The translations under genes were made by a program, and so were the position numbers. Positions 48,417 through 53,883 of a stretch of DNA of 64,000 bases are shown here, piece after piece. The notes beneath the pieces were generated by a model, which saw only the letters and a list, made by a program, of their open reading frames with translations, was not told the origin of the DNA and made no database searches. This DNA comes from Polyangium mundeleinium (lineage in GTDB: Bacteria > Myxococcota_A > Polyangia > Polyangiales > Polyangiaceae), in contig NZ_JAQNDO010000001.1 in NCBI RefSeq assembly GCF_028369105.1, positions 8,526,501-8,590,500 of the forward strand. The letters run 5' to 3'. The stretch's first letter is position 1. Each line of letters opens with the position of its first letter.

Positions 48417-50063
48417 CTAGCCCTCGCCGTACTCCTTGAGCTTCCTATAAAGGGTCGCCACGCCGATCCCGAGTTTCGCCGCAGCCTCCTTGCGGTTTCC
48501 TCCCTCGGCCGCGAGCATCGCGAGGATGTGCTCCCGCTCGACCTCGGCGAGCGGGCGCGGGGAAAACCCTGCTTCACGCGGAGCTGTTGCGGCTGCTGCG
48601 CCTCCGATCTCGGGCGGCAGATCGCCCCCCTCGATCGTAGGCCCTTCCGACAGGATCCGCGCCCGCTCCATCGCATTGACGAGCTCGCGCACGTTGCCCG
48701 GCCAGGCGTGCTCGTAGAGCGCGCGGCACGCTGATTTGCCGAGCTCCTTCGGCGCCTCCCCTTCCCGCGCCGCCGCCTCCGAGAGCTGTCGCCGCGCGAT
48801 CGGCAGGATGTCCTCCGGACGCTCGCGGAGCGGCGGGATTGCGATCTCCACGACCCGCAGCCGAAAATAGAGATCCTGCCGAAAGCGCCCCTGCGCCACG
48901 GCCGCCGCGAGATTTCGGTGCGTCGCCGCCACGATCCGCACGTCGATCGGGCGCGTCCGGTTCTCGCCCACCCGCCGCACCTCGCGCTCTTCGAGCACCC
49001 GGAGCAATTTCGCCTGCATCGCGAGCGGGATCTCGCCCACCTCGTCGAGGAACAACGTCCCGCCCCGCGCCGCTTCGAAGAGCCCCGCCCGCTCCGTCAC
49101 GGCCCCGCTGAACGCGCCTTTCGCGTGCCCGAAGAGCTCGCTCTCGAGCAGACTCTCCGGCACGGCCGCGCAGTTGATCGCCACCAGCGGCCCCGCCACG
49201 CGCGGCGACGCGTCGTGCACGAGCCGCGCGATCCTCTCCTTGCCCACCCCGCTCTCGCCGAGCAGAAGCACCGTCGCGTTTGTCCGGGCGACCCGCCGCG
49301 CCATCGCGACCACGCCCCGCATGGCCTCGCTCCGCGCCACGATCCCCGGCACCTCGGCATCGTCCTCGCCCGCCGAGAGCAGCCGCTCGGCGCGAAGCAG
49401 CCGCGTCTCGGCACGCCGCAGGGACCGCTGCACGTGCCGGAGCGAGGCGTCGAGGCAGTCTGTCTCGTAAAACGAGAGGTGCGGCACGATCGCCTCGCCC
49501 CACTCCTCGCGGCTCCGCCCGATCATCCGGCACACGGCGTCGCCCTTGCCGCGGCACGACTCCTCCAGCGCGAAGATCGGCCGACCATTGACGCGGCTCA
49601 GGTATCCGCTCGCGAATCCCGCGAGCGTCCAGCACACCGGCTCCGTCGCTTGCCCGAGGTGCAGGAGGTGCTGCTCCGCCTCGTACGAGTCATTCCATAT
49701 CGCGTCGGCGAACGGCTCGGGCCCCGGGCGCCCGTCGGGCTCGACCGGCTCGAACGTCACGAGCCCCCACAGCCGATGCAGCCGCCCGCCCGCGATGCGC
49801 CATTCCCGCTCGTCCGCCCAGGGAATCCGCTCGCGCAGCGCCTCCGCCGTCCGCCAGCCGTGCCCGTACCCGAAGCGCGTCAACACCGCGCGCGCCGCGT
49901 GGTAGCCGAAGCTCTCGATGAGCTGCTTGCGCAAGAGTCCGAGCGCGACCGCGTCGAAGAGGAGCACGCGCTCGCCCGCGAAGCGCATCACCCCGCCCTT
50001 CGGGCCGAACGAGAACAGATCCGAGAGCCGCAGATCGGCGGCCCGCATGCCCTTGGTTTTCAT
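48417..50063 (-). CDS. Sigma-54-dependent activator of XylR/DmpR type (XylR_N-V4R-AAA-Fis)
   Basis: 548 residues from ATG 50063 ([12 protein letters not shown]); the longer frame to 50303 overlaps the pirin gene and is rejected. An N-terminal XylR_N domain and a V4R domain (W-N-D-S-Y-E-A-E, then C-R-G-K-G-D-A-V-C) form a small-molecule sensor, usually for aromatics. The AAA+ domain has Walker [16 protein letters not shown] (Walker B), R-fingers and a sigma-54 contact loop reading G-A-F-S-G-A instead of G-A-F-T-G-A. A Fis-type helix-turn-helix ends it ([19 protein letters not shown]). It is divergent from pirin. Confidence 0.9.
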
Positions 50064-50078
50064 TTCGAGAGCCCCGAG

Positions 50079-50095
50079 TCTATCATTTTGATAGA
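50079..50095. promoter_or_regulatory. Palindromic upstream activator site candidate
   Basis: TCTATCATTTTGATAGA: seven-base arms around TTT, between the sigma-54 activator and pirin. Its centre lies about 87 bases upstream of the predicted pirin start point, the usual distance for an enhancer site of such activators. Confidence 0.65.
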
Positions 50096-50147
50096 CGGAG
50101 GCAGCACGAACCTCGCGTTTCCCGCCGAAAAAGCGCCTACCCGAGCT

Positions 50148-50164
50148 TGGCCCGGCTCGTGCTT
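50148..50164 (+). promoter_or_regulatory. Sigma-54 type promoter of pirin-wrbA
   Basis: TGGCCCGGCTCGTGCTT gives GG at 50149-50150, exactly ten bases, then GC at 50161-50162. Six of the seven bases of the -24 box (TGGCACG) and four of the five of the -12 box match consensus. Predicted start near 50174, leaving a 47-base leader with AAGGAGA before the ATG. Confidence 0.5.
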
Positions 50165-50220
50165 GTCTGGAGGGCGAAAGGACAGCGCCCCGCACGAGGC
50201 CGGGGACCAAGGAGACCACG

Positions 50221-50943: not shown

Positions 50944-50977
50944 GGGGGCTCCGCTCGGACACGCCGAGCGAGCCCCC
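50944..50977 (+). terminator. Strong GC hairpin between pirin and wrbA
   Basis: GGGGGCTC-C-GCTCGG pairs with CCGAGCGAGCCCCC over 14 base pairs with one bulged C and a five-base loop. No T run follows, so it may be an attenuator or RNA-stability element rather than a complete terminator. Confidence 0.55.
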
Positions 50978-51019
50978 GCCCCCTCATCTTCCGATCTTGG
51001 ACGGAGCTAGACAGCCACC

Positions 51020-51610: not shown

Positions 51611-51834
51611 CGACGCGCCGCTCCATGCTGCGCCGCAGCACGCACATCTGGCGTCCTTTTGCAGTGCGGCAATTGCTCCCCTTCCGACACTTCTTCGCAG
51701 CCGCAGCATCAAACGGACCTTCCGGTTCGAACGATGCTTGAAAACCCCACGGATCACCGATAGGCATGGACGACCCGCACTTGCTGCGGTCGCACAACCG
51801 GGGCTCCCCGGCGGGCGCTGCCCAGGAGGTTTCC

Positions 51835-53883
51835 ATGCTGCAATCTTCGCTTCCCCGTCGTTCGTTTGCGCTCACGGCCCTCTTCGCGGCCCTCTCCGCC
51901 ATGGGCTGCGTGGCGTCGCCCGTCGACGAGTTCGCTCCGGGCGACGACGAGACCGACGAAGCCAGCTCCAACCTCACGTTCATCTCCGATTACGAGGCCT
52001 ATTTCGATCCCCCCGCGACCACGACGTTCTCGCAGAGCTACAAGCTCGTCGGCGCCATCACGCCCCCGAGCTGGTCCTGGGGCAAGATCGAGCTCCTCGA
52101 AGGGCGGCAGAAGTTCCGCACCGAGGGGTACAACCTGCGCACGGCGAAGGGGCGCTGGCAGGACACGTTCCAGGACTCCACCTATCCCTTGCGCACCTAC
52201 TTCGGCGCCCTGAACCAGCAGCTCGTCGACGGGTTCAACATCCAATACCAGAACACCTGCGCCGGCGCCGTCGGCTCGACGTCGGCCGCCGCTTGTCCGG
52301 ACAAGGGCCCCACGCGTCCCGAGGCGCGCTTCGTGCTCCTGCATCACGGCCCGAAGACCGCGCTCGATCAGTGTGACAAGACGAAGGCCCCGGTGCTGCT
52401 CGTGCACGGCGCCATGCAAAACGCGAACGTCTGGCTCCGGCCGAGCGGCGACGACGGCACGGGCAAGCTCTACCCCGGCATGACGCAGGCGACGGGCTTC
52501 GTGCAGGCGCTCGAGGCCGAAGGCTTCTGCACCTACGCCACGACCTTCGGCAACTTCCACGGCGACAACTTCAACCAGGCCATTCACATCGCGAACGCGC
52601 TCTCGCGCATCCGCTCGCTCACGGGGAGGCCGAAGGTCAACCTCGTCGCCTGGAGCAAAGGCGTCGTCGCGGCGGACCTCTACATGTCGAGCCCCGCGAC
52701 CTGGACCGACTGGGGCCCGAAGTATTTCGAGCAGCTCGCGGCGCTTCAATCGCTCGGCGTCCCGAACTTCCGCAAGGACGTGCGCACGTACGTCGCGCTC
52801 TCCGGTCCGCACCTCGGCATCGACCTGAACTTCCGCCACCCGTTCAACCCGCTGCTCATCTACAGCACGGCGGAGAACGCGCCGCTCGGCCAGGGCCCCG
52901 TGACGTGGAGCTACATGTCCGCCGTGCAATGCGTGACGTGGGGCTACGCGGACTCGCCGAACGACATCTTCCCGAACCCGTATGCCTACTCGGTCTGCGA
53001 AAACCGCGGCGGCACATGGCTCGATTACTGGCGCCGCATTTACACGTCGAACATCACGGGCCTCGACACGACCGGCAAGCCGCTCGCGCCGAAGTCGCTG
53101 AAGACGCTGAACACCGAGCAGGGCGCCTCGGCGACGGGTTACTCGTTCGACAAGTACAACCTGGCCATGTGGGGCTCGGTCGACGACAAGGGCAAGCTCG
53201 TCTCGGCCTACCTCGGCCAGATGCAGGTCACCTACGATCTGCGCCCGTATTACCCGCTCCCGAACCGGCAGGACGATCCGATCAGCTACGACTGGTCCAC
53301 GCTCGACACGGACGAGACGAAATGGCGCGACTGGATCGCCATCAAGACCAACTACAACCCCGCGAACATCTTCGGCGGCGCTGGCTGGATCATGGATGAC
53401 GCCGGTCACACGACCTGCCGCGCGACCGCGTACGATCCCGCGACCGCTTGCCGCGCCAAGCACCTCTACTACGACAGCCTCACCGCCGAGTCGTATTCGC
53501 TCGGCTATGCGCAGTACAAGCTGATGGACGGCATCGGCATCAAGGCCGTCGCGGAGATGGGCGGCAACCTCATCGATCGGCTCCGAGCGCGTGGCCTCAG
53601 CACGAGCCTCGATTACCTCTACGTGCTGCACGGCACCTCGGGCGGCACGAGCGGGCAGGTCTTCGAGATCGACGGCATGGCCTGCCCGACCTGTGATCCC
53701 AAGGGCGACGGCGTGCTCTTCGACGTGAGCATCGCGGCACGGGATCAGCTCACACAGGGCTGGACCAGCACGAACAAGGCAAACAAGTCGAAGCAGGAAG
53801 GCGTGCCCTACGGCCACCTCGAAGTCGGCGTGACGCCCGCCGTCTGGACGAAGATGATCACGCAGTTCAAAGCGCTGCCCTGA
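51835..53883 (+). CDS. Large secreted lipase-like lipoprotein
   Basis: 682 residues from ATG 51835, with GGAGG five bases upstream. The lipobox is A-M-G-C-V. An Asp/Glu-rich linker and an N-terminal domain of about 150 residues precede an alpha/beta-hydrolase core: P-V-L-L-V-H-G-A-M-Q-N-A (oxyanion hole side), then the nucleophile elbow V-A-W-S-K-G-V-V with the form A-x-S-x-G rather than G-x-S-x-G, as in Bacillus lipase A. Several Cys pairs lie in the C-terminal half. It is probably a cell-surface lipase or polyester hydrolase. The catalytic His may be in D-D-A-G-H-T-T-C or Y-G-H-L-E-V. Confidence 0.75.
   Translation: MLQSSLPRRSFALTALFAALSAMGCVASPVDEFAPGDDETDEASSNLTFISDYEAYFDPPATTTFSQSYKLVGAITPPSWSWGKIELLEGRQKFRTEGYNLRTAKGRWQDTFQDSTYPLRTYFGALNQQLVDGFNIQYQNTCAGAVGSTSAAACPDKGPTRPEARFVLLHHGPKTALDQCDKTKAPVLLVHGAMQNANVWLRPSGDDGTGKLYPGMTQATGFVQALEAEGFCTYATTFGNFHGDNFNQAIHIANALSRIRSLTGRPKVNLVAWSKGVVAADLYMSSPATWTDWGPKYFEQLAALQSLGVPNFRKDVRTYVALSGPHLGIDLNFRHPFNPLLIYSTAENAPLGQGPVTWSYMSAVQCVTWGYADSPNDIFPNPYAYSVCENRGGTWLDYWRRIYTSNITGLDTTGKPLAPKSLKTLNTEQGASATGYSFDKYNLAMWGSVDDKGKLVSAYLGQMQVTYDLRPYYPLPNRQDDPISYDWSTLDTDETKWRDWIAIKTNYNPANIFGGAGWIMDDAGHTTCRATAYDPATACRAKHLYYDSLTAESYSLGYAQYKLMDGIGIKAVAEMGGNLIDRLRARGLSTSLDYLYVLHGTSGGTSGQVFEIDGMACPTCDPKGDGVLFDVSIAARDQLTQGWTSTNKANKSKQEGVPYGHLEVGVTPAVWTKMITQFKALP

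Follow-up and report, generated by a model that had tools for sequence, protein, structure and literature searches.

Results

A V4R activator gene faces a pirin-wrbA gene pair

In the window, the 64,000-nt stretch of the Polyangium mundeleinium genome that we analyzed, a gene for a sigma-54 activator lies divergently from a pirin gene, which is followed by wrbA. Two putative operators, one of which reaches into the first codons annotated for the activator, and a predicted sigma-54 promoter lie between the activator and the pirin (Table 1). The 13.25-Mb genome carries a single rpoN gene, which scores 421.6 bits where the cut-off is 277.35. Polyangium fumosum DSM 14668 has this locus too (L087).

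Table 1. Features of the locus in window coordinates; operators, promoter and transcription start are predictions.
Feature	Position	Strand	Content or basis
Sigma-54 activator	48417..50063	-	XylR_N, V4R, AAA+ (GAFSGA loop), HTH_8
Distal degenerate operator TTTTCATTTCGAGAG, core TCATTTCGA	50057..50071; core 50060-50068; center 50064	.	Genus conservation
Proximal operator, perfect palindrome GTCTATCATTTTGATAGAC, core TCATTTTGA	50078..50096; center 50087	.	Genus conservation
Sigma-54 -24/-12 box TTGGCCCGGCTCGTGCT	50147..50163; GG 50149-50150; GC 50161-50162	+	11/13 consensus letters
Predicted pirin transcription start	50174	+	Inferred from the -12 GC position
Pirin ribosome-binding site AAGGAGA	50209..50215	+	
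Pirin, YhhW/quercetinase type, 232 aa	50221..50919	+	Pirin and Pirin_C_2 domains
WrbA, NAD(P)H:quinone oxidoreductase type IV, 196 aa	51020..51610	+	NCBI equivalog cut-offs exceeded

The first-pass annotation had named the output genes as a pirin and a quinone reductase, and both names hold: the pirin has the two domains expected of it, and WrbA scores 169 against a cut-off of 141 and 156.6 against a cut-off of 132.5 bits in the NCBI equivalog models. The pirin matches 1tq5 and 6uts, of the YhhW quercetinase-type sequence family, and the YhhW motifs THPH and HSE, which serve as metal ligands, are present as well. Judged by these matches, the window pirin is a member of the YhhW-type (quercetinase) family, just as its WrbA shares the sequence family of the WrbA quinone reductases. 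The wrbA gene lies 3' of the pirin gene in all six genus members, and the two are probably co-transcribed.

The spacer between pirin and wrbA comes in two lengths: close to 100 nt in three loci (the window, L047, L049) and close to 50 nt in the other three (L048, L050, L051). In the window it contains a G+C-rich hairpin-like sequence (50945-50985), which might lower wrbA expression. Further downstream, 3' of wrbA, the region 51766-53883 encodes a large secreted protein with weak similarity to lipases and PHA depolymerases that is syntenic in all six genus members.

The activator resembles the phenol sensors of the XylR/DmpR type

The first-pass annotation had assigned XylR_N and V4R sensor domains to the activator; Pfam matches bear this out and add Sigma54_activat and HTH_8, all four domains following in this order and exceeding their gathering scores. 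Read from the ATG at 50063 the protein has 548 amino acids, and from a conserved start at 50048 it has 543. We take the conserved ATG that ends at 50048 to be the probable true start, rather than the one at 50063; a conserved M[RK]A.DL-like N-terminus opens most activators of this V4R/sigma-54 family. The closest named full-length model is MobR, with a score below the model cut-off of 999. Among solved structures, the sensor domain matches DmpR/CapR, MopR (two sequences) and PoxR, where we take 6iy8 to be DmpR and 5fru to be PoxR. Both names derive in part from excerpts of PMC7264223.

According to the same excerpts, His100 and Trp128 position phenol in DmpR (PMC7264223). The equivalent residues, H91 and W118, are present in all six genus members, and among 119 aligned activators, a set that includes near-copies, the histidine is found in 112 and the tryptophan in 95 (it is missing in 24). 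The V4R zinc ligands C139, E162, C165 and C173 are present in all 119; the cysteine numbers in the consulted part of PMC7264223 run two above those given by the offset of our alignment, and the spacing matches. The pocket departs from that of DmpR at Phe93, which is Arg84 in the window activator and arginine in 84 of the 119. This substitution suggests a different, perhaps more polar ligand, and because the pocket differs in this way, the activator may respond to something other than phenol itself; judging by the sensor residues and the kinds of output, the inducer is likely to be a phenol, a catechol or a quinone. In all six genus members the AAA+ loop that contacts sigma-54 has the sequence GAFSGA, and a sample of 40 activators divides into GAFTGA (29), GAFSGA (7), GSFTGA (3) and GAYTGA (1). 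In the passages available to us, GAFSGA is described as a loop variant that retains activity (PMC4641369, PMC6615313). By every sequence feature tested, the window activator is of the XylR/DmpR type.

Two conserved putative operators lie upstream of a predicted sigma-54 promoter

The palindrome upstream of the pirin gene had been described as 17 bp long and about 87 bases upstream of the predicted start. The palindrome and the distance of 87 nt from its center to that start stand, and its length is corrected to 19 bp, made up of 8-bp arms and a 3-bp center. The window as a whole has no excess of perfect inverted repeats with arms of at least 8 bp (33, against 40.85 in shuffles), and the palindrome alone among them exceeds 60% A+T (1, against 0.05 per shuffled window). 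Because 47 of 2000 shuffles of the 157-bp intergenic sequence also produce a repeat of its size, the palindrome by itself is moderate evidence. As for its occurrence elsewhere, which the first-pass annotation had proposed to search, the exact sequence CTATCANNNTGATAG is found at a single place in the genome, and allowing one mismatch brings the whole-genome count to chance level (28 per strand against 29 for the control).

A second, distal operator had been overlooked. It is a degenerate copy of the TCA-N3-TGA core, occurs in all six genus members, covers the alternative ATG (50061-50063) and is separated by 8 nt from the conserved activator start codon. The two operator centers are 23 nt apart, at 62 nt (proximal) and 85 nt (distal) from the GG of the promoter box.

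GG-N10-GC had been expected to be common in GC-rich DNA, and its 1717 occurrences in the window indeed make it uninformative alone. The stricter pattern TTGGC-N8-TGCW occurs twice in the window, where 0.42 matches are expected and 7 of 100 shuffles reach two, and the box upstream of the pirin gene is one of these two matches. Scored against the TTGGCAC-N5-TTGCW-type consensus, this box, whose presence the first-pass annotation had reported correctly, retains 10 or 11 of 13 letters in all six genus members. We predict that it is a sigma-54 -24/-12 promoter.

Aligning the six genus members, we found invariant columns at 15 of the 19 positions of the palindrome, 11 of 15 in the distal site and 11 of 17 in the promoter, compared with 16 of 50 in the operator-promoter gap, 8 of 40 in the leader and 79 of 88 at the start of the pirin coding sequence. 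This conservation is the decisive evidence that the predicted operators and promoter go beyond chance. In two of the six members, L048 and L049, the right arm of the palindrome reads TGAGAG in place of TGATAG, and therefore exact symmetry is dispensable.

The tandem operators recur upstream of related activators

We assembled 119 upstream regions from the window, 39 family loci and 79 of 80 loci from a scan of genome contigs (the best 80 of 270 relatives; L105, without a start codon, was left out). Length and sequence quality admitted 118 of these, and removing near-copies left 103; this set, which includes loci from the best 80 of the 270 relatives, spans Myxococcota, Acidobacteriota, Gemmatimonadota and other phyla. 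We scored a pair when two TCA-N3-TGA cores, each matching at least five of six letters, lay 20-23 nt apart within the first 90 nt. Such pairs are present in 65 of the 103 regions (shuffle mean 0.75, maximum 4), most frequently at a spacing of 21 nt (34 regions), and a perfect core lies within the first 60 nt in 70 (shuffle mean 2.2, maximum 6). A box with at least 9 of 13 consensus letters occurs at positions 60-150 in 73 regions, against about 4.4 in shuffles; the reverse strand yields 3. When pairs are defined more loosely, pair and box occur together in 63 of the 103 regions, this combination is absent from 40, and 17 have neither. Where a near-perfect pair is joined by a strong box (49 regions), the pair lies either 59-63 or 70-74 nt before the GG in 41.

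The activators of L052 and L053 are 62-63% identical to that of the window, yet these loci are without operators. L120 and L129, both from Archangium, encode V4R activators without a tandem TCA-N3-TGA pair; upstream of both we noticed by eye a TGGCA...TGCCA-like repeat that is different from the operators. A tyrosinase gene stands in front of the V4R activator of L129, and we rejected it as an output of the switch because the locus is without operators.

The outputs are diverse and have changed repeatedly

We defined the output as the first gene recognized within 500 nt, using tblastn with representative proteins and Pfam on chosen ones, because the choice of open reading frames in GC-rich DNA often picks the wrong strand or frame. 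The first output of the 103 regions is a YceI protein in 23, a pirin in 19, a LigB/DOPA-type dioxygenase in 16, and other or unassigned in 45, with some of the assignments weak (the pirin match of L109, for example, has 52 bits). Of the 23 YceI regions 21 have both pair and box, as do 12 of the 19 pirin regions, all 16 dioxygenase regions and 14 of the other 45. The dioxygenase is followed by a YceI gene in 15 of 16 loci, and in the sixteenth (L137) the sequence ends there. Outputs of the fourth class that have both pair and box include cytochromes P450 (L059, L076, L080), a GST followed by a pirin (L148), a FUSC/aromatic-acid-exporter-type protein (L112) and a SnoaL-like protein (L156). Among the surveyed loci, we found wrbA within 5 kb only in those of the window's genus. 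We found no phenol or toluene hydroxylase among the identified outputs of the 103 regions. By their families, the outputs fit aromatic or quinone chemistry.

On an activator tree, built by a quick method and with some long branches and doubtful record titles (Comamonas and Bifidobacterium breve among them), no fewer than 10 changes are required for the three main outputs; the pirin label takes 9, of which the starred branches force 8.

Operators and promoter occur apart from the activator gene

Because the tandem motif was first spotted on part of the set later used for counting it, we searched whole genomes for a composite operator-plus-box pattern without protein information. In the window's own genome the pattern occurs at one place (control 0), and since the palindrome is likewise confined to one place, we rejected a wider regulon in this genome. 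The 98 family genomes contain 20 places (control 1), of which 10 lie beside a V4R activator, and the 282 phylum genomes contain 18 (control 2), of which only 2 do.

We examined places without an activator in their 1.5-kb flanks, covering all 10 from the family and 6 of 15 further ones from the phylum. Three of them precede a cytochrome P450 gene: L184 (genome G087), L186 (G097) and L187 (G058), assigned by Pfam for the first two and by 95% identity to the P450 of L184 for the third. The L184 enzyme is 65% identical to the activator-adjoining P450s of L076 and L080 and 68% identical to that of L059, where those of L059 and L076 are themselves assigned by similarity. At all six loci (L059 in G077, L076 in G094 and L080 in G019, together with L184, L186 and L187) the operators are of the CGGTCA-N3-TGACC(G) type. 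G087 and G097 carry activator relatives elsewhere in the genome (L057 and L058), and we found no CGGTCA-type operator in the 600 nt upstream of the starts of these two; for G058, the search for relatives returned no full-length activator relative. We propose that a paralogous V4R activator of the Polyangiaceae with CGGTCA-N3-TGACC operators drives the P450 gene, adjoining it in three loci and standing apart from it in three. The occurrence of operators and box before a P450 gene with no adjoining activator indicates that operator and promoter track the target gene, and not merely the 5' end of the regulator gene.

A serine in place of alanine in the recognition helix accompanies the CGGTCA-N3-TGACCG operator, in cis in L059, L076 and L080 and unlinked in L057 and L058. 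We do not claim a correspondence between the two because L118, L120 and L129 also bear the serine and have no identified operator pair.

Two further kinds of places came up in these searches. At L182, L191 (G009) and L075 (G084) an operator and box precede chaperonin (Cpn60/GroEL)-like genes, a call that rests on a Cpn60_TCP1 match in Pfam for L182 and was made by eye for L191 and L075. At L193/L206 (G157), where the 1.5-kb flanks contain no V4R activator, two overlapping operator-plus-box patterns of opposite orientation neighbor a distant pirin.

Discussion

The comparative evidence and the presence of rpoN strongly uphold the circuit of sensor, enhancer, promoter and output that had been proposed for this locus, although the enhancer is not a single palindrome but a putative tandem pair. 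The support for an aromatic or quinone signal is indirect, coming from the sensor residues and the kinds of output. The circuit is very probably real and dedicated, resembling those of XylR and DmpR and at the same time more compact, with two helical turns between its sites and a shorter distance to the promoter. We consider it probable that the locus encodes a dedicated compact sigma-54 switch, in which a V4R activator, two operators and an aromatic effector control the pirin gene, and probably wrbA with it. The predicted operators and promoter, their conservation, the rpoN gene, the protein families and the recurrence of the arrangement with other outputs all support this reading.

A related reading accepts the circuit and places the origin of the signal inside the cell: the effector would be a product of the cell itself, such as an isoprenoid quinone or a lipid, and YceI, pirin and WrbA would serve envelope or redox upkeep. 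YceI proteins bind polyisoprenoids, and YceI is the most frequent output in our survey; to our knowledge, the roles of pirins and YceI proteins are poorly understood. The arginine that commonly replaces DmpR Phe93, and the loss of the tryptophan in a fifth of the activators, would also sit well with such a ligand. Against it, the phenol-positioning histidine is almost always retained, and the LigB/DOPA-type dioxygenases act on catechols by family. We regard a cell-made signal as unlikely.

It is quite improbable, in our judgment, that the locus is an ordinary catabolic circuit of the XylR/DmpR type with the known layout and unremarkable operators. The two do share their domain order, the His/Trp pair and zinc ligands, palindromic operators that come in pairs and a sigma-54 target that lies divergently, and AphR of Betaproteobacteria, an activator of the XylR/DmpR group with multiple sites, has a related half-site: in the text of PMC6449761 available to us, its motif GCTTGATCATTTGATCATGC includes TCA-N2-TGA, where we find TCA-N3-TGA. 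The same source, as far as we could consult it, gives a spacing of 29-42 nt for the operator pairs of this group and a usual distance of 100-200 nt to the promoter downstream; XylR and DmpR sites are separated by three turns, HbpR sites by three or four, and AphR sites by three or rarely one (PMC6449761). The pairs described here are instead 20-23 nt apart with an odd, 3-nt center, lie nearer the promoter and abut the start of the regulator gene. When we ran the same script on plasmids, at the loci of mobR, xylR and a dmpR-like gene, candidate sites lay about 158-250 nt from the regulator start, with two copies 41 nt apart at mobR (sites judged by eye). The targets differ too. AphR controls phenol hydroxylase and catechol pathway genes, as the excerpts of PMC6449761 have it, whereas the outputs found here are a pirin, WrbA, YceI, a dioxygenase or a P450, with no phenol hydroxylase. 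The predicted enhancer layout at the window thus does not match the XylR/DmpR type, even though the activator does.

That the operators serve autoregulation only, with pirin and wrbA transcribed from an unrelated sigma-70 promoter and GG-N10-GC a chance match, would suit operators that adjoin the activator start codon and a box whose core is so frequent, but it is very improbable given that strong boxes cluster within a narrow range of distances on the target side and are rare on the reverse strand, that three P450 genes have operators and box although the nearest 1.5 kb holds no activator, and that L057 and L058, the unlinked activators, have no such operator in the 600 nt before their own starts.

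We return to the compact switch responding to an aromatic compound, for which we propose the following sequence of events. The V4R activator would bind the two TCA-N3-TGA operators just upstream of its own start codon, which are separated by about two helical turns, probably as adjoining dimers. An aromatic effector, most likely of the phenol, catechol or quinone type, would bind the XylR_N/V4R domain, upon which the activator would hydrolyze ATP and open the sigma-54 polymerase at the -24/-12 box 62 nt away. The opened complex would then transcribe pirin and probably wrbA. Activator bound at the two operators probably also limits its own synthesis, since these sites abut the activator start.

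The first-pass annotation knew of no aromatic or quinone response described in this form. Among PMC titles and abstracts, which mostly leave out subscription journals, we likewise found no pirin under a V4R/sigma-54 activator, no circuit linking V4R, sigma-54 and YceI, and no such circuit of a myxobacterial enhancer-binding protein; but the module is not peculiar to this locus, as it recurs across phyla with other outputs. Myxococcota are among the lineages with higher counts of sigma-54 activators, according to the part of a recent survey that we consulted (PMC12316311). What appears to be new is the tandem two-turn operator layout and its outputs, whereas the XylR/DmpR-type activator protein is known.

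Taken across phyla, the V4R/sigma-54 switches may form a modular defense against catechols and quinones, in which one type of regulator and one two-turn operator are combined with varied outputs and the same operators shut off the regulator gene. We put this forward tentatively, as a generalization that could hold but of which we are not persuaded. If true, it would define a previously unrecognized family of modular switches whose outputs are pirin, WrbA, YceI, extradiol dioxygenase, P450 and GST. For the sigma-54 activators of this family in Myxococcota and Acidobacteriota, the analysis provides a specific and testable operator and set of targets. Through repeated, partly independent couplings, it ties pirins and YceI proteins to a regulator of the aromatic-sensing type. 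With its two-turn operators, which differ from the published XylR/DmpR layout, the locus would also offer a short sensor cassette that can be assayed in laboratory hosts.
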